Shown here piece by piece: positions 1-13,750 of a DNA stretch of 13,750 bases; position 1 is the first letter of the stretch, and every line of letters starts with the position of its first letter. Made by a program: the position numbers and the translations under genes. Where the stretch lies: the NCBI GenBank assembly GCA_030622125.1, contig JAUXGM010000049.1, forward strand, positions 1 through 13,750, written 5' to 3'. The notes beneath the pieces are model-generated. The model had not been told where the DNA came from and did no database searches. It was given only the letters and a program-made list of their open reading frames with translations. The DNA comes from a bacterium. Lineage in GTDB: Bacteria; AUK180.

Positions 1-1783
1 CATTTTCCAAAGGTATAGTATCATTTTTAACATTTCCCGAGATATAACCGCAATCATCAAGAATTATATCAATTGAAACGGTATTTCCCGTCGTAAATGG
101 AATTACATTTGCATCATTGAAATTATTCTTATCTTCATACCATTCAAAGGCATAAGAAAAATCATAAGCATAAGCAACTATTTTATAATTCCCTGTTAAT
201 AAACCGTTTATTTTGAAATATCCCGGATTTGTATTGCGCCAGTAATAATCCTCGGCATATTTTATGTATTTACCGGTATCAGCATCATAAATTTTAACCC
301 AAATATTATCAAGTGGATGGGCTAAATCCTGATAATATACATTTCCTTCAATAAATCCACCTTTTTCAAGAGAAAATGATATTGTTGTTGTATTACCACC
401 CGTAATTACTACCGATGTGGCTGTCTCCTTATTATAACTATTATCATACCATTCTTCAATATAGTTTTGCTCTATTTTATTATTCTTGCATTGTACAAAG
501 AAATTATCAGATGGCAGGCTTGTAATCCTGAAATACCCATTACTGTCCGTATAACCATACTTAAGAGGACGTGATACATTCTCGGTATCTGAATAGACAC
601 ATACTTTTATCTTATCAACAGGAGTCCCGCTTTCAGTATCCAGAACTGTCCCTTCAAGATACCCGCCCTCGTTAAGTAAAAAATTAATATTCGGTGTAGT
701 ACTTCCGGAGGTTACAAATACAGGGTCAGCCTTTGCATAATCATTTTTATTATTATACCATTTGGTTTCATAGTAGTAATTTCCCATATCGCGACCGGCT
801 CTCACAAAATTATTTCCTTCCGGTATGCCTTTTATTGAATAGTTCCCGGTATCATTAGTATAACCACCGTAGATATAATAGTATTTTTCATCATAAGCAT
901 AAATATATATTTCTTTTAAAGGTGTATCTGTAACAGCGTCTTTTACAGTACCGGATATGTACCCACCTTTTTTAAGTTTCATAGTTATACTTGTAGTATT
1001 TTTATCTGAGATTGTAACAAGATCAGCATCAGTAACAAAATGTTCATCTTTATAATATTCTCTGGCATATTCACTCGCCTTATTCCAAACAAAATAGTCA
1101 TCCGGTTGTAATCCCGAAAAATGAATCTCACCATTTAAATCCGTATAAGCAGCAGAAAAATTGTCACAATCACAGCCCCAGTAATAAATAAGACAATTAC
1201 TAATTGGTTGAAGAGTATCTTCATCAATTGCCTTTATATTAAGATATCCGCCTTCTTCCAATTGAAAATCACAGGTAATTGTATTTCCCGAGGTAACCGT
1301 AACAATGTCGGCATAAGCATATTTTGTTTTATTATCATACCATTCGGATTTATAAAAACCAAATGGTTCACATTGAACTAAATATTCGTCCGGTTCAAGA
1401 TCGATAGAATAATTTTCACTAAAACAAATAATCCAGTTAGTATATGTATAATTGGTGTCATAGATATAAATTATATAACCAGAAATAGGCAAACCTGAAG
1501 TTGAATCAGTAACTGTACCATCTATTCTACCGGTTGGTTGACGGGTATTATTATAAGAAATATTATAAATAAATTTTTTATCTTTTGAAGATTTGATTTT
1601 ATCCATTACCATTTTCCTCTCTTCATACATTTTTTTCATTCTTGATTGAAATTCAATCTCCTTTTGATTCTTCTTTTGAATTTCATTCATTTTAATGTTT
1701 GATATTTCATTGTTAAAAGAAAAAATCGGCATATAAGCAAAGCATAATAACATAACAACGATCAAGAAACTTTGTTTTTTCAT
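1..1783 (-). CDS. Secreted multi-repeat protein with carboxypeptidase-regulatory-like domains (3' end beyond window)
   Basis: The reading frame is open from the ATG at 1783-1781 to the left edge (594 codons, no stop), so this is the N-terminal part of a larger protein. Residues 1-22 form a signal peptide (MKKQSFLIVV start, hydrophobic core, no lipobox Cys). Residues ~25-62 are highly charged and probably coiled coil. From Gly85 the protein is built of tandem units of 93-103 residues; the first Gly of each boundary lies at ~178, 273, 373, 475 and 578. Each unit follows the pattern G-x-V-x-D ... P-(L/I/V) ... YTD-x-x-G-x-(Y/F) ... G-(L/I)-x-x-x-(N/D) ... EWY(D/N)(N/D)K ... AD-x-V-x-VTSGNTT ... 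L-x-x-GGY. This matches bacterial carboxypeptidase-regulatory-like (transthyretin-fold) repeats of surface proteins, which are structural or adhesive rather than enzymatic. A good Shine-Dalgarno (GAGGTGA) lies 4 nt before the ATG. The start, repeat class and secretion are clear; the cellular role is not. Confidence 0.88.
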   Translation of the reverse strand, partial: MKKQSFLIVVMLLCFAYMPIFSFNNEISNIKMNEIQKKNQKEIEFQSRMKKMYEERKMVMDKIKSSKDKKFIYNISYNNTRQPTGRIDGTVTDSTSGLPISGYIIYIYDTNYTYTNWIICFSENYSIDLEPDEYLVQCEPFGFYKSEWYDNKTKYAYADIVTVTSGNTITCDFQLEEGGYLNIKAIDEDTLQPISNCLIYYWGCDCDNFSAAYTDLNGEIHFSGLQPDDYFVWNKASEYAREYYKDEHFVTDADLVTISDKNTTSITMKLKKGGYISGTVKDAVTDTPLKEIYIYAYDEKYYYIYGGYTNDTGNYSIKGIPEGNNFVRAGRDMGNYYYETKWYNNKNDYAKADPVFVTSGSTTPNINFLLNEGGYLEGTVLDTESGTPVDKIKVCVYSDTENVSRPLKYGYTDSNGYFRITSLPSDNFFVQCKNNKIEQNYIEEWYDNSYNKETATSVVITGGNTTTISFSLEKGGFIEGNVYYQDLAHPLDNIWVKIYDADTGKYIKYAEDYYWRNTNPGYFKINGLLTGNYKIVAYAYDFSYAFEWYEDKNNFNDANVIPFTTGNTVSIDIILDDCGYISGNVKNDTIPLEN

Positions 1784-3407: not shown

Positions 3408-5189
3408 ATGGAAAAACAGGATATAAGATGGGACTTAAATGACATTTTAAATGCAGATGATTTTGACAGAAATCATAAAGATTTAATTCAAATGATCAAG
3501 AAAGCAAGTGCAAATTTTTACAAACTGTTTCCGGATATGTCTGAAAAAGAGTTTAAAGGTTTTTTACGATCTTATGAAAAATTGTTGGAAAAATATTCTC
3601 GACTTGGGAACTTTGCTTTTCTTTATGGAGCAACTCATATAAATGATAACAAAACCTTTTATTATAGAGCAAAGGCAAGTGAAATTAGTAATCTTTACAA
3701 TGATTATGCACTTAATGTAACCCATTTTTTAATGGGAGAAAATGTTAAAGGAGTAAAACGACTTGATAAAAAGAATGCAAAGCGTTTATTTGCAATTATT
3801 CCTCAATTAGAATATTTTTTCAAACATCTTCAAGAGGCAAAAAAATATACACTTTCATTTCAGGAAGAAAGGATCATTGCAAGAAAGAACACAAATTTAA
3901 AATCACCTCTCTTACAACTCTATTCAATGATCACAAATGACTTCAAATATCATTTTAAACCGAAAGGAAAAAAAACGAGGATTATTAAAACATTAGGTGA
4001 ATTGACTTTAAATGTTCGCAGCTCTGATCCGGAAATGAGAAAAGCAACATATAAAGCACTTTTTAAGCCGTATAAAGAAAATATCAACAAGATATTTGCC
4101 ATCTATCAAGCAATTTCAAAGGATTGGGATGATAATGTGATCTTAAAAAAATATAGTTGCCCGATTTCAATAAGGAATTTCAGCAATGATATTGATGATA
4201 AAACGGTAGGAACATTGATGGAAGTTTGTAGTAATAACAAACAGATCTTTCAAAAATATTTTAAACTAAAAGCAAAGGTATTGAAGGTAAAAAAACTTTC
4301 AAGATACGACATTTATGCTCCCGTTGGACATCATACAAAAAAATATACCCTGAAAGAAGCAAAAAAGAAGGTTCTTAATGTTTTTGATGACTTTGCTTCC
4401 GGATTTTGCAATGGAGGAAAAAGTATTTTTGATGCAAATCATGTTGATTCAAATCCAAGAGAAAATAAACGCTCCGGTGCATTTTGTGCTACCGTATCAA
4501 CAAAGGTAACTCCGTATGTTCTTTTGAATTTCAATGGTAATGCAGATGCCCTTATGACAATGGCACATGAATTGGGACACGGAATTCATTCTTTGTATTC
4601 AAATAAGCTTTCTTTACTTGTATCTCATTCACCATTACCACTGGCTGAAACCGCTTCCACATTTTCGGAAATGCTTATGTTTGACCGTTTATTAAGTGAA
4701 ATAAAGGATAAAAAAGAAAAGATAACACTTTTATTTGAAAAACTCGGCAGCTCTTATGCAACAATTATGCGGCAAAATTATTTCGTTAAATTTGAGATAG
4801 CTGCACATAACCTACTTCAGAAAGGAGCAACAGCAGAGGACCTTTGCAAAATTTATATGGAAAATTTAAAAGAGCAATTTGGCAATTCAATTACAATACC
4901 ATCAGAATTTAGATATGAGTGGTCATACATTCCGCATATTTTTAATACACCATTTTATTGTTACGCTTACAATTTCGGTGAGCTTCTCTCTATGGCACTT
5001 TACTCTCTTTATAAAGAGAAGGGAAGATCGTTTATTCCAAAGATTGAAAAGATTTTATCATCCGGAAGTTCCGTGAAACCCGATGAACTCCTTAAAGAAG
5101 TTGGTATTGATATTAATTCTAAAAGGTTTTGGCAGGGAAGTTTCAAAATTATTGAAAATTGGTTGGATCAGGTAGAAGAATTGCTTTAA
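3408..5189 (+). CDS. pepF: Oligoendopeptidase F, M3B family zinc metallopeptidase
   Basis: The 593-residue protein is close to the usual ~600 for this family. It is a cytoplasmic zinc endopeptidase that cuts short peptides, roughly 6-20 residues, in peptide turnover. The zinc-binding HEXXH is HELGH at residues 387-391 within MAHELGHGIHS, with His387 and His391 as ligands and Glu388 as catalytic base. The third ligand is Glu414 in LPLAETAS, at the expected spacing. The N-terminal helical M3 domain (~110-180) and C-terminal helical catalytic domain (~200-575), including the late WSYIPHIFNTPFYCYAY substrate-binding region, are both intact. No signal peptide is seen. AGGAG precedes the ATG with normal spacing. 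The gene lies 13 nt after the membrane protein gene, and its TAA overlaps the convergent diguanylate cyclase stop. Family assignment is firm; peptide specificity cannot be read. Confidence 0.96.
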   Translation: MEKQDIRWDLNDILNADDFDRNHKDLIQMIKKASANFYKLFPDMSEKEFKGFLRSYEKLLEKYSRLGNFAFLYGATHINDNKTFYYRAKASEISNLYNDYALNVTHFLMGENVKGVKRLDKKNAKRLFAIIPQLEYFFKHLQEAKKYTLSFQEERIIARKNTNLKSPLLQLYSMITNDFKYHFKPKGKKTRIIKTLGELTLNVRSSDPEMRKATYKALFKPYKENINKIFAIYQAISKDWDDNVILKKYSCPISIRNFSNDIDDKTVGTLMEVCSNNKQIFQKYFKLKAKVLKVKKLSRYDIYAPVGHHTKKYTLKEAKKKVLNVFDDFASGFCNGGKSIFDANHVDSNPRENKRSGAFCATVSTKVTPYVLLNFNGNADALMTMAHELGHGIHSLYSNKLSLLVSHSPLPLAETASTFSEMLMFDRLLSEIKDKKEKITLLFEKLGSSYATIMRQNYFVKFEIAAHNLLQKGATAEDLCKIYMENLKEQFGNSITIPSEFRYEWSYIPHIFNTPFYCYAYNFGELLSMALYSLYKEKGRSFIPKIEKILSSGSSVKPDELLKEVGIDINSKRFWQGSFKIIENWLDQVEELL

Positions 5190-6724
5190 CCATTTTTTTG
5201 TATAAAAAATTTATTATTTCCTGATTTCTTTGCCTTATATAGAGCGATATCTGCTCTTTTTACCAATTCTTTCTCTGTTTTAATATCATCGTACGGATAG
5301 TAAACAGCACCGATACAACAAGTCGTTTGTATCTGTTTTCCGTTATCAATTTTGCATTTAAATTTGGAAACGGTGGAAAGTATTCTTTCCATAAACTTTT
5401 TTTCATCTGCTATTTCAATTTTATGGCTTATGATAACAAATTCATCTCCGCCGTATCTTGCCAAAAGATCTACACCACGCAGTCGTAAAGATAAATGGTG
5501 GCAGAGTTCTTTTAGATATTTATCTCCAATGATATGACCATGAGTATCATTTATCATCTTAAAATTGTCAAGATCAAAAATAAGCAGCATTATGTTTTCT
5601 CCGTATCTATTAACCCTTTTCATTTCATAATTCAATATTTTATAAAAATATCTGCTGTTAAATAGATTTGTAAGTCCATCATGGACTGCTAAATCCTGCG
5701 TTTTTTTATATAACTTAGCATTCTTGATTGCAATTGCCGCCTGAGAAGCAATATTCATAAGCATTTTCTGATCAACTTCGTTATAACTATTCGTGTTTTC
5801 ATAATCCTGAACGATTATTACACCTATGACATTATTTTCAAAAATAATCGGCACTCCAAGCCATGATCTTGGATTTTTTCCAATGCCTTGAATCTTTAAC
5901 TTTTTTTCTAAAGCAAGATCATAAGAAGTAATTAAGATCGGTTTCCGTGTTTTAATTATATGTTCGGTAAACCCATTACTAAACTTTCTAATTTCAGGTT
6001 TTGTCTTTTTATTATTTTCCACCGTAAATACAAATTCTATTTCTTTTTTCCTTTTATCGTATATGGCAATAGTAAAATTTTTTGTATTCAAATATTTTGA
6101 AGTCTCTTTGTAGATAACCATCCATAATTTATCCAATGAAATTGTTGATGTAATGCTTTTACTTATTTCATTTAACGATACTAATCTTAACATATTTTGA
6201 TTTAATATCAAAAAGTTTTCATTATTTCTAATTGCAATTGCTGATAATTTAACAAAAAAATCCATGAGCAGAAGTTGATCTTTATTTATTTTGTATGATT
6301 TTTTGAAATAAAAATTCAATGCACCGTAATCTTTATTTTCAACATAGATCGGAAAACAAATTACTGAGACCAGACCTTCTTCCTTAACCCATTTCAATGA
6401 TTTATGGCTACCATTCTTATTAAAAAAATCAGGGATGTTTTCAATAATTTTGTACTTTCTTTCTTGTATTGCAATGCCTGCAAGATCAACACCGACCTTT
6501 GCAAAAACTATTTTTACATAAGATTTGCTTAATCCATAACTTGCTTTTATTCGCATTGTATCTGGTTCATCCTTCTCAAACATCATAATTGAGGTAGCAT
6601 CGGCACCGAGCATCTGACATGCAAGTTCACAGATCCTATTATTCGTAGTGTCTAAGCTGTGAAACCTTAGAATATATTCAAATATTCCTGACATTACCGC
6701 AATTTGGTCTTCAATATTTTTCAC
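5186..6724 (-). CDS. GAF-GAF-GGDEF diguanylate cyclase
   Basis: The enzyme should make cyclic di-GMP from two GTP. In 512 residues it carries two GAF sensor domains (~20-165 and ~190-340, the second with SWLGVPIIFENNVIGVIIV) joined by a helix, then a C-terminal GGDEF domain (~350-508). The catalytic motif is intact (GGDEF, residues 425-429), as are the metal/GTP motifs FDLDNFKMIND and GHIIGD. The inhibitory I-site RxxD is present as RGVD at 416-419, so product feedback is expected. No membrane segment or signal peptide is seen, so it should be a cytosolic sensor; the GAF ligands are unknown. The start is GTG with AAAGGGGAT upstream and its own promoter. The gene follows the five-gene envelope operon on the same strand, so read-through could also feed it. 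Its TAA shares a TTAA with the convergent pepF stop. Confidence 0.95.
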   Translation of the reverse strand: MKNIEDQIAVMSGIFEYILRFHSLDTTNNRICELACQMLGADATSIMMFEKDEPDTMRIKASYGLSKSYVKIVFAKVGVDLAGIAIQERKYKIIENIPDFFNKNGSHKSLKWVKEEGLVSVICFPIYVENKDYGALNFYFKKSYKINKDQLLLMDFFVKLSAIAIRNNENFLILNQNMLRLVSLNEISKSITSTISLDKLWMVIYKETSKYLNTKNFTIAIYDKRKKEIEFVFTVENNKKTKPEIRKFSNGFTEHIIKTRKPILITSYDLALEKKLKIQGIGKNPRSWLGVPIIFENNVIGVIIVQDYENTNSYNEVDQKMLMNIASQAAIAIKNAKLYKKTQDLAVHDGLTNLFNSRYFYKILNYEMKRVNRYGENIMLLIFDLDNFKMINDTHGHIIGDKYLKELCHHLSLRLRGVDLLARYGGDEFVIISHKIEIADEKKFMERILSTVSKFKCKIDNGKQIQTTCCIGAVYYPYDDIKTEKELVKRADIALYKAKKSGNNKFFIQKNG

Positions 6725-6800: not shown

Positions 6801-6823
6801 ATTTCCTTATTTCCTTATTTCCC
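6801..6823. repeat. Octanucleotide array (ATTTCCTT)2.9 at the end of the AsmA-like gene
   Basis: Units lie at 6801-6808, 6809-6816 and 6817-6823. The array contains the TAA stop (6817-6815) of the AsmA-like gene and encodes its last codons. Its 20-nt core (6802-6821) recurs exactly, inverted, at 13596-13615, on the far side of the five-gene operon. Confidence 0.65.
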
Positions 6824-9520
6824 TACCAACTTATTTTGGAATGCCCCTATTATTTTTTTCATTGGAATATTCTGGATACTGAATGGTAGATTGACAAGAC
6901 TGAAACCGTGTTTTTTTAACGGAACATAGAGAGATGCCGTTGAACCGTTTAACTTTATATCAATAGTTTCGGGATAGTATCCAAGAAATTTAACCTTATT
7001 CTTAAAGCCTTCCAATTGTGTATCTTCTCCCTTCGGATCAATTGCATATAAGATATTTAAAAGAACACTTCTCCCAAGTGACGGCATCTTTATTGTGCCA
7101 TTCAGATCTTTTATGTTTCCATAGATATTACTATGAATATTTACCAATGTATCGCGTTTTGAGAAATTCTTGGGGGCGTTCTTGAGAAGTTCGTAGATAT
7201 ACCCGTTTGTAAAATTGAATTTTAACCAAAAATTAAGATCCTGTGTTGCGGTCAGTGAGCTAACTCCATGCCCTCCGAGAAAGATAAAATCAAGATTGCT
7301 CATATCTAAAAAATTGTTAAAATTAATTTTAAATTTAATTTTATCAATGTAATAATTTTCATAGTATAAACGATCAATAACCAAATTATATCTCTTTTTT
7401 TCCGAATCGGATAGTATCTCAATTGGGTTCTCCAATGGTTCCGGAAGTTCATAGTTACTTGCGATACTGCTCTCGTAAAAAATCGGAACGATACCCGATA
7501 ATTTATTGACCTTAAGGTGCATTGAACTTACAGAAACACGATCCGCTTCTAAATTACCGTTAAGTATGAAATCATTTGAAATTAATTCAAGAGTAAAGCT
7601 CATTGGAATAGATAGAACACCTTTATAAAGATAAGTATCGTATAAGCGTATATATCTTTTTGCATTTAGATTTAAATTACCGGTAGTCATCACATAATTT
7701 TTATTATAGGATGTATAGAATTCGCCATTGATAAAATGACTACTGTCATTGATAATTATATTTCCATTGAACATTCCGCTTTTTACATTGCCGGTACCCA
7801 TAAATGAAAAATCATTTTCAGAGATCAAAGCGGATGAAATTTTTTCTAAATTATTTCCTGTAACCTTAATATCCCTCAGTTTGAGCATTCCATTTATAGC
7901 CAATATTCCATTTTTATCAAGAGTAAAATCTTCTATATTTGCAATTAGTTTACCATTTTCCACATCAAGTTTCTTTACTCCAATATCTATTAAAGGAATC
8001 TTTTCAAGGTCAACGAAGAGCCCTGTTTTTTTACTCCTTAACCCTCCGGTATTAAAATCATAATCCACATCTGCATTTAAAGTTGCAATATCATCAATAT
8101 TCAATTTTCCGATCAATCCGATTGCTTTATCGTTTCCTTTATATATAAGTTCCAGATCAAGCTTTCTTCTTTTCACATAGATCGTATCGTTTTTAATATT
8201 CTTAACATCAAAATTCAATGACAACTTACCGTTGTAATCCAATTTATTAAGATTTCCATCCATTTCAGCAACAAAATCGCTCATAATAAAAGTATCTTTA
8301 AGTTCCTCATTGATAACACCTTTACCGTTAAGGGTCAAATTGAGATCATCGATATTTCCGATAACCCTACCTTCCATCTTTACAAGATTCTTTCTAAATG
8401 TTCCATCTATTTTGGGAGAAAGATCAATGATATTTCTTTTTCCAATATCTAAAATATTTCCCGATATCTTTAAATTTGTATTTAACGGTTCTTTTTTTAT
8501 GTCTCCTATTATTTTACCGTCCACATTTATCTTGACATTATTTTTGGCTCCATTACCAAGGAAAACAATCTGTATATTGGATAGATCAATATCCTTATCT
8601 TTGTAAGATGAAAGAACTTCCGAATATATATTTCCCTTTGCAATTTCAAATTTACCATCTAAATAGACTGTTGCCAAAAGCGATTCTACTGTCAAAATAG
8701 CATTATTAAGATGGAGTTTATCAAAATTATTTTCCGAGAGCGATAATTTTAGGGACGCCAGGTCTAATTTGATCTTTTGTTTTTGAATTGCCGCTCTTAA
8801 TTTTCTGATATTTAGTGCGGCTAATTTAGGCGAACTGCCTTTGACATTAGCAAATATTTCCCATTTATTAAGATCTATTTTTATTGGAACAAGATCTATA
8901 ATGATCGGATACTTAGCATAATTCCCTCTGATGTATGCCAATATATTGATTTCTTTAAAAAGTTTTCCGTTCGCTTTAATATTTACATTTGCCGATATAT
9001 TTTCTTTCTCCATTTTTATATCGGGAAGATTCGCCGTTATTGCAATATTTCCATTATTAATTGATCCATTTACCGTAAATTGTTCCGTTTTAAAAATATT
9101 TTTCATTTCAATACTTCTTATCGTAATAGAGATCTTTCCTATGGTCATTTTTAGAGAATCCAATTTCGGAAGTTCTATTTCATTTTTATCTGCTTTCTTT
9201 TTTTTACTTTCATTAATATATATCTTACCTGTATTTAAATCTACGGAATCAATTGTCTGTCTTAACATTTTTAAAAATTTATATTTAATTGTAAGATTGA
9301 TCTTATCAGCAACAAATTGCTCGGATGTAACCGTTAGTTCATCTACCTTTACCGACTTTAATGGTGATATTGTTATTTTTTTAAATTTAACATCATAAGG
9401 GATGAATCTTTTAATTACTTTTTTCTGAAATCCCTGATTATTTATAAGAATAACGGATGAGAGTAGCAGCAGCAATATTACCGCTACTACTCCTACCACG
9501 ATAAAAATAACTTTTTTCAT
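6815..9520 (-). CDS. AsmA/TamB-like periplasm-spanning protein
   Basis: This large protein (901 residues from the ATG at 9520) has one N-terminal membrane anchor (residues ~3-27, KKVIFIVVGVVAVILLLLLSS) and a long periplasmic part. That part is dominated by short beta-strands rich in alternating N/D/K/I and G, with recurring forms such as LNLTLNGKG, GNLNLNA and ISGNILD. This is the texture of the AsmA/TamB/YhdP superfamily, whose beta-taco proteins form hydrophobic grooves for lipid transport or act in outer-membrane assembly. The end (~830-901) also looks AsmA-like (NGTIKMPSLGRSVL...IDIKLNGSTASLYVPLKK). The frame could also start at TTG one codon earlier, but ATG is preferred; the ribosome site is weak, suggesting coupling to the FecR gene, which ends 7 nt upstream. 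It is the last gene of the operon. The superfamily call is by pattern, and the exact subfamily is unsure. Confidence 0.75.
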   Translation of the reverse strand: MKKVIFIVVGVVAVILLLLLSSVILINNQGFQKKVIKRFIPYDVKFKKITISPLKSVKVDELTVTSEQFVADKINLTIKYKFLKMLRQTIDSVDLNTGKIYINESKKKKADKNEIELPKLDSLKMTIGKISITIRSIEMKNIFKTEQFTVNGSINNGNIAITANLPDIKMEKENISANVNIKANGKLFKEINILAYIRGNYAKYPIIIDLVPIKIDLNKWEIFANVKGSSPKLAALNIRKLRAAIQKQKIKLDLASLKLSLSENNFDKLHLNNAILTVESLLATVYLDGKFEIAKGNIYSEVLSSYKDKDIDLSNIQIVFLGNGAKNNVKINVDGKIIGDIKKEPLNTNLKISGNILDIGKRNIIDLSPKIDGTFRKNLVKMEGRVIGNIDDLNLTLNGKGVINEELKDTFIMSDFVAEMDGNLNKLDYNGKLSLNFDVKNIKNDTIYVKRRKLDLELIYKGNDKAIGLIGKLNIDDIATLNADVDYDFNTGGLRSKKTGLFVDLEKIPLIDIGVKKLDVENGKLIANIEDFTLDKNGILAINGMLKLRDIKVTGNNLEKISSALISENDFSFMGTGNVKSGMFNGNIIINDSSHFINGEFYTSYNKNYVMTTGNLNLNAKRYIRLYDTYLYKGVLSIPMSFTLELISNDFILNGNLEADRVSVSSMHLKVNKLSGIVPIFYESSIASNYELPEPLENPIEILSDSEKKRYNLVIDRLYYENYYIDKIKFKINFNNFLDMSNLDFIFLGGHGVSSLTATQDLNFWLKFNFTNGYIYELLKNAPKNFSKRDTLVNIHSNIYGNIKDLNGTIKMPSLGRSVLLNILYAIDPKGEDTQLEGFKNKVKFLGYYPETIDIKLNGSTASLYVPLKKHGFSLVNLPFSIQNIPMKKIIGAFQNKLVGK

Positions 9521-9527
9521 CAATGAA

Positions 9528-10298
9528 TTATCTTTTTATCAACTTATCTCTTTCGGTATTCCAATTTACAAATTCATCATCCTTTACATCTTCCAGAGAA
9601 AAATCAGAAACCTCTCTCTTACCACTGCTTGAAATGGTTATTCTCTGCATTGCTTTGACAAGGGATTCCCATTCCTCTTTTGTAACTTTATGATATGGTT
9701 TTTCAATACGATGAAATGGTTTTTCAATACGATACGGTTTTCCAAAGGTTTTTTTAAATGTTTCTTTTATTTCTAATGTAACAGGTGTAACGGCAACCGC
9801 GCCGTCAAAGACCATGATATCGGTATTCCCTTTCTCGTCTACTGCGGAATTATAGATCGTCCCTCTTACTCCACATACACCCTGAGGTGTGCTAACTTCA
9901 TATCTTGAAGCAGTGCTGTTTTTAAGCAGGTTGTTCCATATCTTCCCGACCTTAACTTTTATAATGATCTTTGTATCCTTGATTTCCTTTGCCTGTTTTA
10001 CATTTGCAATATTGACGGAAAAACAGCTTATTATCGTATTTTCCCACATTCTAACAAAATGGTTATCCCGGGTCTTTATCTCCAACCGTGATGCTTTATC
10101 TGTCATAATTGTTGCATTTAACGGAATAAGCATACTTTTTTTAAGTTCCAACTTGGCTTCTTGTTTCGGAAGAGTATAGTATGCTTTTCCTTTAAGAAAG
10201 TTAACGGTTCCAAATTCCTCTATCTCTTTTGGCTTCTCACCCTTGAATACGATTAAAGTAAAAAATAAGATCACGATAAGAATAAGGTTTCTTTTCAT
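9528..10298 (-). CDS. Secreted FecR-domain protein
   Basis: The 256-residue protein has a signal peptide (~1-19, MKRNLILIVILFFTLIVF) and a FecR-type beta domain over ~28-170. Its signature is STPQGVCGVRGTIYN (~134-148) followed by IMVFDGAVAV; this TPxGxxxVRGTxF...V.EGxVxV pattern defines the FecR fold. Classical FecR is an inner-membrane anti-sigma regulator in iron uptake. Here there is no cytoplasmic anti-sigma part, FecI sigma gene or TonB receptor, so this is more likely a periplasmic structural or binding module. Residues ~189-202 contain a tandem RIEKP(F/Y)H duplication encoded by a 21-bp direct repeat. The C-terminal ~55 residues are charged and helical. ATG overlaps the stop of the FlgT-like gene (ATGA), so translation is coupled. 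Confidence 0.85.
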   Translation of the reverse strand: MKRNLILIVILFFTLIVFKGEKPKEIEEFGTVNFLKGKAYYTLPKQEAKLELKKSMLIPLNATIMTDKASRLEIKTRDNHFVRMWENTIISCFSVNIANVKQAKEIKDTKIIIKVKVGKIWNNLLKNSTASRYEVSTPQGVCGVRGTIYNSAVDEKGNTDIMVFDGAVAVTPVTLEIKETFKKTFGKPYRIEKPFHRIEKPYHKVTKEEWESLVKAMQRITISSSGKREVSDFSLEDVKDDEFVNWNTERDKLIKR

Positions 10299-11446
10299 TG
10301 GTTTACCTTCTTAAGCGTTAAAGCACTGCTCGTAACATCTACTATTTCAATCTTAAAAGGCAAATCACTTTCTCTTAATGTAAGTTCCTCGGCTATCTCT
10401 TCCGCATTTTTCTTTGTATCAAGATCTATTTCGGCAACACCCGATGTGAACCCTCTTTTATAGACCTTATCCACCATTCTTATTCTTTCTCTTAAAAAAT
10501 TTACAAATTTACCATAGTTGGAATAGTTAATATTTTTCAGTGTAATATGGACATAACTACTACCGCTGCTCCATTTTGACATAAGGTTCGTTGTCATATT
10601 TTCTACCATTTCAGGAATAAGCAGTTCAAGGGCTTTGTTCGTTCCGGTAATCTTGTCGGAAACGGGACCAAGTGCTTTATGCTTTGTTTCAGAAGCAACG
10701 ATCTGCCCTGTATCACTTTTTATAGCCTTGATCGCCATATCAACCTGAGCGGATAAAAATCCTCCGTAAAATTGATTGACTTTTACATTTCCCACAACCG
10801 TTCCGGTAAGAAAGTAATCTGCACCATATAAGGTAGCAATTGCCTGAGCGGATTTTATATCCCCCTCCATAGCAGATTGCGCAATTGATCTGTCAAGATT
10901 TGCCTTTCTTTGTGTTTTATCAAGGACAACAAATCCCTTATTGATAAATTCCTTTTCCAATAATTCTTCTGCAATTGATGTTCTATCATAATAATTTGCC
11001 CATCCGTTACCATAGAGATTCTGTTTAAGAAAAATGACGAGCCGCGGCATATTCTGTTGAACGAGGATCAGATGCAATGCCGTCAATTTATCTTTTATGC
11101 CGTTTTTTGAAACAAGTGCCTTTATCTTCACATAGTAAGTGTTACTATCCTTTGGTTTGTCTTCAATGATCTCATATTTTTCAACAAACCCCTGTGATTT
11201 AGAATAGATCTCATCACTTATAAGCTGATAATTCTGAACTTTACTCTCGGAAGAGATCATTGTTCCAACAACCTGTTCAACTGCATTTCTAAGTGCATCC
11301 TTTATTGCCGCATCTCTTCCAATGAGTTTTTCGCCTTGAAAGATTGCACCGTAACCTTCAACGGTTACCTCTTGAATATCTCCTTCATTTTCCGCCCATA
11401 CAAAACCGATAAGGATAATAAATAATATTGCCAGAACCCTCTTCAT
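10295..11446 (-). CDS. FlgT/CsgG-like periplasmic protein
   Basis: The 383-residue protein has a signal peptide (MKRVLAILFIILIGFVWA, cut near 18) with no lipobox Cys. Residues ~25-118 match the FlgT N-terminal (LPP20-related) pattern: VTVEGYGA, GRDAAIKDALRNAVEQVVGTMI, SKSQGFVEKYEII, YVKIKALV. Residues ~125-290 resemble the FlgT middle/CsgG-like fold, with LYGADYFLTGTVVGNVKV followed by AQVDMAIKAIKSDTGQIVAS. Residues ~295-383 form a further alpha/beta domain. FlgT is known from Vibrio as an H-ring part of the flagellar motor, and CsgG-like folds occur in outer-membrane secretion. No flagellar or curli genes are nearby, so this is probably a non-flagellar envelope use. AGGA precedes the ATG, overlapping the TAG stop of the upstream gene's region; the stop codon overlaps the FecR start. 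Confidence 0.8.
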   Translation of the reverse strand: MKRVLAILFIILIGFVWAENEGDIQEVTVEGYGAIFQGEKLIGRDAAIKDALRNAVEQVVGTMISSESKVQNYQLISDEIYSKSQGFVEKYEIIEDKPKDSNTYYVKIKALVSKNGIKDKLTALHLILVQQNMPRLVIFLKQNLYGNGWANYYDRTSIAEELLEKEFINKGFVVLDKTQRKANLDRSIAQSAMEGDIKSAQAIATLYGADYFLTGTVVGNVKVNQFYGGFLSAQVDMAIKAIKSDTGQIVASETKHKALGPVSDKITGTNKALELLIPEMVENMTTNLMSKWSSGSSYVHITLKNINYSNYGKFVNFLRERIRMVDKVYKRGFTSGVAEIDLDTKKNAEEIAEELTLRESDLPFKIEIVDVTSSALTLKKVNQ

Positions 11447-11454
11447 AATAATTC

Positions 11455-12600
11455 CTAAAATGTTAACCTTAGTGCGTTCTGAAGTGCTCTGATCGCCAAT
11501 AGTGCTTCTGCTCCCGATATTGTATCTTCCGGATGAAATTCACCTCTTAAACTCTTTGTTTCCAATATGTTCCTATCCACACAAAGAGCAATTGAATTAT
11601 AGGCATAGTAATCACTTCTAACATCGGGAAAATGTGAACTTTCGCCAATATATTTCTTCGTAACAGAGGTATCATTGTCAATAAGCACAATTAAATCCTC
11701 AATTGCTTGAGCAAAATTTGCTCTCGTCATCGACATATCGGGTTTAAATGAACCGTCGGGAAAGGGTTTTAATCCCCTAATATTTAATTGAAGCACTTCC
11801 TTTATCCAGTTCTTTGCCCAATGAGCTTCAATATCAGCTGAATAAGTTGATTTTTCCTTTGTAGAAGCTGCAAGTTGCTCCGGTGTTTTAAAGGAGGTAT
11901 CATATATATCTTTTCTTCTGTTTTTTATTACATTTTCCAGTTTAAATTCTTCTATTAGAAGTACGGTAAAATCCGCTCTATCAAGTTTCGGCAGTAAGGC
12001 AATTTTCTTTCCGTATTTTGTTCCGGGCATTGCTCTTTGGATGTCATTCATCAATTTCCATTCCGCATTTGCTTCATTTATAAAATCATTGTTTTTTATC
12101 TCAACAACCTTTTTAAATACACTGCCCGCTTTTCCAAATGCGAATGCTTCTCTGTAACTCATTCCAAGATAATAGAGTGCTTCGGCATTTTTCGGTTCTT
12201 TTTTAAGTATCTTATTAAAGACCTTTTCGGCATTCTTTAACCAATCTTTACCTTTTTTCATTACAATGAGTCGTGCTTTAACGATCTCAACCGGTATTGC
12301 TTTTTTACTCAATTTTTCTGCTTTTTTGATGCTTTTTTCTGATTTTTTGAAATCCTTTTTTGCACCGAAATAAAGTGCCATGCCAAGATGTCCATACTGA
12401 GATTTTTTATCCATCCCAATTGCCCTTTCAAATTCCTGATACGCAGCATCATATTGTTCTTTATCAAGTAATTTTACTCCCATTATATAATGGTTCTCAG
12501 GAGTATCAAGCACGGATTCGGGTTTAATGACCTGTTTTTTACACCCGACAAAGAGAGCAAGCAACGCAATTACTACAAATACAATTGTTCTTTTCTTCAT
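11455..12600 (-). CDS. TPR lipoprotein with C-terminal SLH motifs
   Basis: The 381-residue protein has a lipoprotein signal with Cys20 as the likely acylated residue (ALFVGC; Phe at -3 is slightly unusual). TPR-type helices span ~36-180, for example ENHYIMGVKLLDKEQYDAAYQEFERAI and NAEALYYLGMSYREAFAFGKA. Two SLH motifs follow: ~255-305 (HWAKNWIKEV...PFPDGSFKPDMSMTRANFAQAI) and ~318-375 (HFPDVRSDYYAYNSIALCVDRN...EFHPEDTISGAEALLAI). The segment LPKLDRADFTVLLIEEF before them may be a degenerate third. SLH domains bind cell-wall polymers, and in some diderms they tether the outer membrane to peptidoglycan. The canonical TRAE is TRAN here. A lipid anchor plus SLH suggests an outer-membrane-to-wall link, and the TPRs suggest a docking scaffold for the operon partners. 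AGGAGGT lies just before the ATG. Confidence 0.88.
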   Translation of the reverse strand: MKKRTIVFVVIALLALFVGCKKQVIKPESVLDTPENHYIMGVKLLDKEQYDAAYQEFERAIGMDKKSQYGHLGMALYFGAKKDFKKSEKSIKKAEKLSKKAIPVEIVKARLIVMKKGKDWLKNAEKVFNKILKKEPKNAEALYYLGMSYREAFAFGKAGSVFKKVVEIKNNDFINEANAEWKLMNDIQRAMPGTKYGKKIALLPKLDRADFTVLLIEEFKLENVIKNRRKDIYDTSFKTPEQLAASTKEKSTYSADIEAHWAKNWIKEVLQLNIRGLKPFPDGSFKPDMSMTRANFAQAIEDLIVLIDNDTSVTKKYIGESSHFPDVRSDYYAYNSIALCVDRNILETKSLRGEFHPEDTISGAEALLAIRALQNALRLTF

Positions 12601-12610
12601 ATCTACCTCC

Positions 12611-13435
12611 TTATTTTGTTAAGACGAACATAACTCTACACTGTTGAATAAATGTGAGTTTTTCCTTTACTTTCAATATTTTGTCGGCATCAATGTTTGA
12701 GATGATTATCTTGTCCCCATCGATCTTAACAGCAGTGATTATCAATGGATTATCTGTAACCCTATCGTTTGTTTTGACCTTATCAAGATCGGTAGCATAT
12801 CCGACTATACCCATTTTGATCGCAAAATCCTTATTGACCTTTGATGCTGCATAGATGACTGTTCCAGCTTCACTTATAACCTTAGGTGCCATCATAGGCA
12901 TTGCTTTTTCATCGTTTATGACAACTACCAAGCCGGTATAAACAGGATTTTCAATGTCAATTATCGCAACATCGCCGAAGCCCATTTCGGGTGCTATAAT
13001 GTGAATAAGTCCGTCCGCGCCGAAAAGCGGTACCGAAACATCTACTTCTACTGTTCCGTCGGAGTTATATCTCTCTTCGCCATATCTTTTTGCTCCCCTT
13101 ATGAACCCGCTCATGCTTGATCTGATAATATCGCTTTTTGTCTGAAAATTTTCAACGATGGTCTCAGAATCAATTCTAACCCCTTGAATAGTTTCAAGAA
13201 GATTCCGCTTTGCATTAACCTCGGCTGCTCTAAGTGCCATTAAACGACCTCTTCCAACATGCTTGTCTTTAAGGTCATAAGCACCATAGCCTACGGCAAT
13301 AACAAGACCTTTTTCCCAGTTAATACGCCCATCACCGATTTTTTCCTCAACCGCCTTCTTTACATTTTCATCTACTGCAAATAGAGGCACCAAGGAAAGC
13401 ATAAAAACCAACACTAACAAAAGTAGTTTTTTCAT
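12611..13435 (-). CDS. LPP20-family secreted protein, first gene of the envelope operon
   Basis: The start is taken at ATG 13435, not at the in-frame ATG four codons upstream (13447), because the upstream ATG sits inside the Shine-Dalgarno itself (GGAGGATTTTATG) and the signal peptide begins exactly here. The product has 274 residues: signal peptide 1-20 (MKKLLLLVLVFMLSLVPLFA), without a lipobox Cys although the family is named after a Helicobacter lipoprotein. The LPP20-like domain spans ~39-140 (INWEKGLVIAVGYGA, RLMALRAAEVNAKRNLLETIQGV, SMSGFIRGAKRYGEERY, GTVEVDVSVPLFG). The C-terminal domain (~160-270) carries YTGLVVVINDEKAMPMMAPKV...GTVIYAA, a partner domain often attached to LPP20-like regions. 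It probably acts in the periplasm. The gap to the next gene is 10 nt. Function beyond envelope association is unknown. Confidence 0.85.
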   Translation of the reverse strand: MKKLLLLVLVFMLSLVPLFAVDENVKKAVEEKIGDGRINWEKGLVIAVGYGAYDLKDKHVGRGRLMALRAAEVNAKRNLLETIQGVRIDSETIVENFQTKSDIIRSSMSGFIRGAKRYGEERYNSDGTVEVDVSVPLFGADGLIHIIAPEMGFGDVAIIDIENPVYTGLVVVINDEKAMPMMAPKVISEAGTVIYAASKVNKDFAIKMGIVGYATDLDKVKTNDRVTDNPLIITAVKIDGDKIIISNIDADKILKVKEKLTFIQQCRVMFVLTK

Positions 13436-13623: not shown

Positions 13624-13750
13624 AATCTCCGTCCCCCATAAAAAGAGGGACATTACCGAATACAATTGACAATGGACAATGGACAATTGACAATGAAAAA
13701 AAGACAAATACAAACTCAGAAAACAAGCGGGACGTACCTCGGATGTTCAG
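13624..13750. repeat. Intergenic mosaic repeat, right copy, with a CAATTGA/CAATGGA heptamer core (cut by window end)
   Basis: On the minus strand the order is GTCCCGCTTGTTTTCTGA (13733-13716), a T-rich stretch, a heptamer array (13696-13663), GGTAATGTCCCTCTTTT (13657-13641) and then TATGGGGGACGGAGA. Both flanks are exact matches to the left copy at 2389-2478 and the last part matches the GGGGACGG module at 2038-2048. On the plus strand the array reads CAATTGA, CAATGGA, CAATGGA, CAATTGA, CAATGA. No gene is visible here up to the window end. Confidence 0.75.

Follow-up and report, generated by a model that had tools for sequence, protein, structure and literature searches.

The 13,750-nt stretch of DNA analysed here (the window) is the entire contig JAUXGM010000049.1 (C114) of a 2.08 Mb bacterial genome (GTDB lineage AUK180; assembly GCA_030622125.1; 192 contigs, 96% complete). 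It carries a five-gene operon encoding an LPP20/FlgP-like protein, a TPR-SLH lipoprotein, a FlgT-like protein, a FecR-domain protein and a large beta-rich protein. Judged by its recurrence in other genomes, the true core is the first three genes, which are found across distant lineages of the Fibrobacteres-Chlorobi-Bacteroidetes (FCB) group. The conserved set, read from gene content, is LPP20, TPR-SLH, FlgT-like and CsgG, usually with FecR. Such a widely conserved gene set in bacteria mostly without flagella may specify an unknown cell-envelope machine. Our favoured reading, which we hold with about even confidence, is an outer-membrane ring complex of a non-flagellar kind, most of it encoded by the operon, with a CsgG-type channel and an SLH lipoprotein as its tether to the wall. 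What appears to be new is the combination; the parts, gene 5 excepted, belong to known families or folds. The combination was not found in the openly licensed literature under LPP20 with SLH, CsgG with KSB1, or CsgG with SLH and FecR, which is weak evidence of novelty. The features are as follows.

12611..13435, minus strand: gene 1, secreted LPP20/FlgP-like protein, 274 aa (profile matches and conserved place upstream of gene 2)
11455..12600, minus strand: gene 2, TPR-SLH lipoprotein, 381 aa (Pfam SLH and TPR; Cys20)
10295..11446, minus strand: gene 3, secreted FlgT-like protein, 383 aa (PF16548, PF13036, AlphaFold model with Foldseek and VIA)
9528..10298, minus strand: gene 4, exported FecR-domain protein without lipobox, 256 aa (PF04773)
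6815..9523, minus strand: gene 5, large beta-rich protein, about 900 aa, AsmA-like by architecture only (AlphaFold model; no family match)
5186..6724, minus strand: GAF-GAF-GGDEF diguanylate cyclase, possibly a regulatory neighbour (PF00990, 4.5e-42)

Layout and conservation of the operon

The five open reading frames (ORFs) lie one behind the other on the minus strand, from 13435 to 6815. Gene 1 starts at the ATG at 13435, with a GGAGG ribosome-binding site a few nucleotides upstream. Genes 1 and 2 are separated by 10 nt (12611/12600) and genes 2 and 3 by 8 nt (11455/11446); genes 3 and 4 overlap by the 4 nt ATGA (10295/10298), and gene 5 begins 4 nt (TTG at 9523) or 7 nt (ATG at 9520) after the end of gene 4 at 9528. 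By inspection, genes 1, 3 and 4 have a signal peptide without a lipobox Cys, gene 2 has a lipobox and gene 5 an N-terminal membrane helix. The first-pass annotation of this DNA, made from the letters alone, had described a tight minus-strand operon of exported or anchored products, and its coordinates and junctions proved correct. Promoter and terminator scans gave results near the shuffled expectation, and PHROGs and Rfam yielded no useful match.

The window's genome and four relatives from the same family (n=5, hereafter the family) are each at least 91% complete, and all five carry the five genes in the same order. A scan of genome contigs with an alignment of the TPR-SLH protein returned 23 loci, 20 of them true relatives; an earlier scan with a single FlgT-like protein as query had found no match. 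The relatives include KSB1, Ca. Tariuqbacter (Electryoneota, FCB group) and records labelled Latescibacterota and Zixibacteriota. Cluster content at 16 loci outside the family was read by six-frame profile search. FlgT follows TPR-SLH in 14 of these, LPP20 lies upstream in all 15 having upstream sequence, and FecR is found inside the cluster or just upstream in eight. A further 33 loci, 30 from the KSB1-type phylum (nine being genomes already counted) and three from the phylum of G012, have LPP20 upstream on the same strand (31/31) and FlgT downstream (33/33). The TPR-SLH protein itself was detected in 56 of 82 genomes of the KSB1-type phylum and in 44 of 386 genomes of a wider sample, a few matches being partial. 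An unconserved order in relatives, which the first pass had counted against its proposal, was thus not seen: all five genes keep their order within the family, and the first three recur in theirs elsewhere.

The same gene order and strand are seen in dozens of genomes spread over several lineages, which excludes chance as the cause of the association. Moreover, two genomes, G357 (on one contig) and G221, have the permuted order FlgT-like, CsgG, TPR-SLH, LPP20, and this permuted co-clustering supports a functional link better than order alone would. These observations bear on the idea that the genes are unrelated housekeeping envelope genes, co-transcribed without forming a single machine. The family-specific gene 5 and the variable placement of FecR would fit that idea; however, repeated co-clustering across lineages, in the same and in permuted orders, speaks against it, and we think it quite unlikely.

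Some loci have additional features. In G179 (L170:2480-4325) the LPP20-like gene is duplicated in tandem directly before TPR-SLH. Beside the permuted cluster of G357, and divergent from it, lies an MlaD-type (MCE) gene for lipid transport, accompanied by probable ABC and permease genes (L168:360-2777). Also nearby, L168:11375-13015 encodes an apparently exported protein that combines ankyrin repeats with a caspase-like C14 domain.

Ring-type proteins, the CsgG partner and the probable wall anchor

Gene 1 alone gave no meaningful Pfam match, and the LPP20 label was not retrieved directly. The label is borne out by a profile (A7) built from 17 relatives, which matches FlgP-type structures (9hmf, 4.5e-11; 8z5n_2, 2.1e-8) as well as Treponema pallidum Tp0624 (5jir, 1.4e-11), the latter along its D1-D2 tandem (profile positions 43-284). 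The protein is composed of a FlgP-type SHS2 domain and a second domain matching Tp0624 D2; its signal peptide ends LFA-VDEN, with no Cys, so that a lipobox is absent. In the FlgP family, ring formation accompanies an insert between the SHS2 helix and the second strand (PMC12222027). The gene 1 profile aligns nearly without gaps across this hairpin-insert segment of 9hmf and also of 8z5n_2. The FlgT-like profile of gene 3 matches FlgP at 1.7e-4 and is likewise nearly gap-free across the ring-forming segment of 9hmf. From these alignments we infer that both proteins keep the FlgP ring-forming segment; the ring itself is a prediction.

The names that the first pass gave to genes 2, 3 and 4 agree with Pfam, which finds SLH (6e-10) and TPR on gene 2, FlgT_N (PF16548, 7e-6, just under the cut-off) on gene 3 and FecR (PF04773, 3.6e-12) on gene 4. 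Gene 3 also matches LpoB (PF13036, 9e-6), and both of its Pfam matches are weak. Its architecture comprises an SHS2 N-domain, a CsgG/PelC/TolB-N-like middle domain and a small C-domain. The AlphaFold model (predicted local distance difference test score, pLDDT, 78) retrieves FlgT with Foldseek (3w1e, 8.5e-11). For the middle domain, VIA gave Z scores of 12.8 with the PelC dodecamer, 12.2 with FlgT (over 215 residues, root-mean-square deviation 12.5), 11.8 with CsgG and 11.7 with TolB. FlgT_C (PF16538) was not found on gene 3 by Pfam; it is present on the CsgG partner instead (3.9e-7). The family genomes (G000-G004) also have an expansion of LpoB/CsgG-N-like proteins, with 9 to 17 matches per genome and none in two genomes of the same class.

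This partner is a full-length CsgG. It is the next gene after the core in eight loci outside the family, in some with a FlgT_C-like end, and it is gene 4 of the cluster in KSB1-type genomes. All five family genomes contain a full-length CsgG match at a separate locus, and the family and KSB1 cluster proteins match each other at about 1e-56 to 1e-72. In one family genome scanned, CsgG (PF03783) matched at 3.5e-43 with a span of 8-207 out of 210, followed by the FlgT_C match. E. coli CsgG is hit by the CsgG profile at 1.3e-12, with an alignment that passes through the region we take to be the first transmembrane hairpin; the C-terminal part of the profile hits TsaP. The second family locus, G000:C26 (L100:7228-11120), encodes CsgG, a small lipoprotein-like ORF, a FecR paralogue, a CBS/CorC protein and DUF502; this order was read in three of the five family genomes (L100, L102, L104). 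Because CsgG and a second FecR sit there, the family seems to have the set divided between two loci. No CsgA, CsgB, CsgE or CsgF was seen among the neighbouring proteins scanned, no genome-wide search having been made. The first pass had remarked that the usual partners of these proteins are absent, which is true of the window; for curli the remark misleads, given the position of CsgG in KSB1-type clusters and elsewhere in this genome.

In gene 2 a lipobox is followed by TPR repeats and then SLH repeats, with no beta-barrel. Both Pfam domains are present in all 20 relatives, and the lipobox Cys20 is invariant in 20 of 20 sequences. On these domains, the lipoprotein probably grips the cell wall. 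Pal is reported to occur in Gracilicutes only, a group from which OmpM, the SLH tether of Terrabacteria, is absent (PMC10628300). Because of that distribution an SLH lipoprotein in FCB-group genomes is unexpected, though the protein is not OmpM. OmpA-domain proteins were detected in all 23 genomes searched; since all hosts have OmpA domains, the predicted SLH tether would stand alongside Pal-type ones in these Gracilicutes. Single SLH repeats were also seen in a short secreted protein of three genomes (G000:C52, L101:7709-8659; G003:C20, L103; G005:C465, L105), and in two family genomes a small coiled-coil-like protein comes after it.

FlhA is absent from all five family genomes and from 12 of 16 other hosts, some of which are incomplete, and is present in four. 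A flagellar function was therefore rejected for the family. None of the loci examined has flagellar or curli surroundings, which the first pass had counted against its proposal. FlgP and FlgT homology, and the FlhA still found in some hosts, might suggest a remnant of a flagellar H-ring or basal disk in lineages that have lost the flagellum. However, hosts with and without FlhA carry the cluster alike, and it is never beside flagellar genes in the loci examined. Furthermore, high identity within the family (60-75%) and conservation together with a non-flagellar CsgG and TPR-SLH indicate that the set is maintained by selection. A remnant is therefore hardly credible.

Accessory genes and surroundings

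Homologues of gene 4 lie within the same cluster in several lineages. After the signal peptide, Pfam finds only the FecR domain, with no sigma or anti-sigma domain. FecR iron signalling was rejected, there being no FecI or receptor gene in the window and no anti-sigma part on gene 4.

Gene 5 had no match in Pfam, NCBIfam or sequence searches of solved structures in the PDB, so that the AsmA label of the first pass is unsupported by these searches. Its AlphaFold model (pLDDT 69) consists of an N-terminal helix and a near-continuous run of about 45-50 strands. Matches of this fold were nonspecific (ApoB-100, LptD, ushers, porins, a TamAB hybrid at 0.15); neither AsmA nor YhdP was among the VIA matches, an absence that is not counted against AsmA. 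The predicted fold is compatible with AsmA/TamB and not specific for it. Gene 5 is restricted to the family (5 of 23 genomes searched). As a core part it was rejected, having no homologue in the 18 other genomes, which include 16 hosts of the cassette; by this distribution it is a family-specific accessory.

The GGDEF gene lies 90 nt downstream of gene 5 on the same strand. In other family genomes the operon is preceded by an EAL protein (two genomes) or a receiver protein (two genomes), and a CRP-type regulator stands beside the G357 cluster. These neighbours might suggest an envelope signalling or stress module: the wall or outer membrane would be sensed by the FecR, TPR and LPP20 proteins, with cyclic di-GMP (c-di-GMP) and receiver neighbours taking part. 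We give this little credence, because the signalling neighbours differ from genome to genome without being conserved alongside the core, and gene 4 lacks a sigma or anti-sigma partner domain.

Elsewhere in the window, positions 2-1783 (minus strand) encode a secreted protein that has carboxypeptidase-regulatory-like domains in repeated copies and is truncated where the contig ends. Two intervals, 2385-2484 and 13635-13737, share near-identical stretches in inverted orientation (26 nt at 92%, 23 nt at 91%), along with short repeats of the TTGTCCATTGTC type. The first interval is intergenic, at about 2.4 kb, and the second lies at the end of the contig; together they resemble a dispersed intergenic repeat.

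The proposed complex and its relation to known systems

In the ring complex that we favour, CsgG would form an oligomeric channel in the outer membrane, with the FlgT-like and LPP20 proteins as stacked periplasmic rings beneath it; the FlgT-like protein could also contribute to a ring through its PelC/CsgG-type domain. The TPR-SLH protein would be held in the outer membrane by its lipid anchor, grip the wall with its SLH repeats and hold the rings with its TPRs. FecR-domain proteins may be accessories of the wall or scaffold, and the AsmA-like protein may be a family-specific addition anchored in the inner membrane. The complex might export a putative cargo through the outer membrane, or stabilise that membrane, at fixed wall-anchored sites. 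Control by c-di-GMP is possible, the adjacent GGDEF gene and the EAL or receiver genes of relatives being a weak hint. The first pass had likewise proposed a periplasm-spanning complex. Its SLH anchor with LPP20/FlgT ring or pore parts is still the best reading, but its AsmA bridge across the envelope is not supported in the conserved machine, because of the narrow distribution of gene 5.

Several observations weigh against a CsgG-pored ring complex. CsgG is absent from the window's operon, its second hairpin was judged by eye only, and the surroundings of the cluster yielded no substrate gene. Two of the 16 related loci outside the family (L057, L066) lack FlgT but keep LPP20 and TPR-SLH. In the wider sample, where 1.5 kb flanks were read, LPP20 lies upstream in 17 of 19 loci and FlgT downstream in 7 of 20, so that in these short flanks FlgT was not seen at 13 of the 20 more distant loci. 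Because FlgT is missing from some loci, LPP20 and TPR-SLH may be the minimal unit. Finally, deletion of the H. pylori fold relative Lpp20 produced no flagellar or barrier phenotype (PMC11756786), and function is therefore not readable from the LPP20 fold.

Some of this would also fit an outer-membrane tether without a channel, a reading that deserves some weight although we consider it unlikely on balance. Here LPP20 and TPR-SLH would be a Tp0624-like wall-attachment unit, SLH replacing OmpA, and FlgT and CsgG would be structural plugs or LpoB-like partners rather than a route for secretion. That the LPP20 and TPR-SLH genes are the most persistent pair in distant families, that Tp0624 fuses D1-D2 to an OmpA-like domain, and that the FlgT-like protein has an LpoB-like score are consistent with it. 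On the other hand, many loci and the permuted clusters have a full-length CsgG along with the set, and all hosts already have OmpA-domain proteins.

We also regard it as possible, though short of probable, that the gene set represents a widespread undescribed Gracilicutes envelope machine, an SLH-tethered, CsgG-pored ring complex without flagella or curli, and that FlgP and FlgT were recruited from proteins of this kind. If the ring complex is real, ring formers of the FlgP/FlgT type also have a conserved existence apart from flagella, in which they are coupled to a CsgG channel. The D1-D2 pair of Tp0624, which was reported without assignable function while wall-related roles were proposed for the protein (PMC5104382), would gain a genomic context beside a probable wall-binding lipoprotein. 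Furthermore, Gracilicutes would use an SLH tether alongside OmpA-type ones, unlike the published split between OmpM in Terrabacteria and Pal in Gracilicutes.

Among known systems, the Vibrio H/T ring (FlgO, FlgP, FlgT; LPHT ring 8z5n) and the Campylobacter FlgP basal disk share with gene 1 the SHS2 domain with its insert, and the N-terminal and middle domains of Vibrio FlgT resemble gene 3. In contrast to these rings, the family has no flagellum, gene 1 has no lipobox, and FlgT_C is on the CsgG partner rather than on gene 3. The D1-D2 tandem of Tp0624 is matched by gene 1 relatives over nearly the whole mature protein, but gene 1 lacks the OmpA-like D3, and the separate SLH lipoprotein is the likely wall binder. 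The CsgG partner belongs to the same full-length family as curli CsgG; it differs in an extra FlgT_C/TsaP-like C-terminal domain, and no curli subunits were found among the neighbours examined. Like OmpM of Terrabacteria, the gene 2 product combines SLH repeats with a probable outer-membrane anchorage, but it has a lipid anchor and TPRs instead of a beta-barrel, and its hosts are FCB-group bacteria that also have OmpA-domain proteins. The Leptospira lipoproteins LipL46, Lsa33 and LipL45 are the best NCBIfam matches of gene 3 (LipL46, 3.9e-18) and gene 4 (a Leptospira family, 1.3e-13), all far below the curated cut-offs. Finally, the H. pylori lpp20 operon (HP1454, HP1456), compared by its description only, offers a case of non-flagellar LPP20-fold proteins encoded together, in an account that mentions no SLH or CsgG (PMC11756786).

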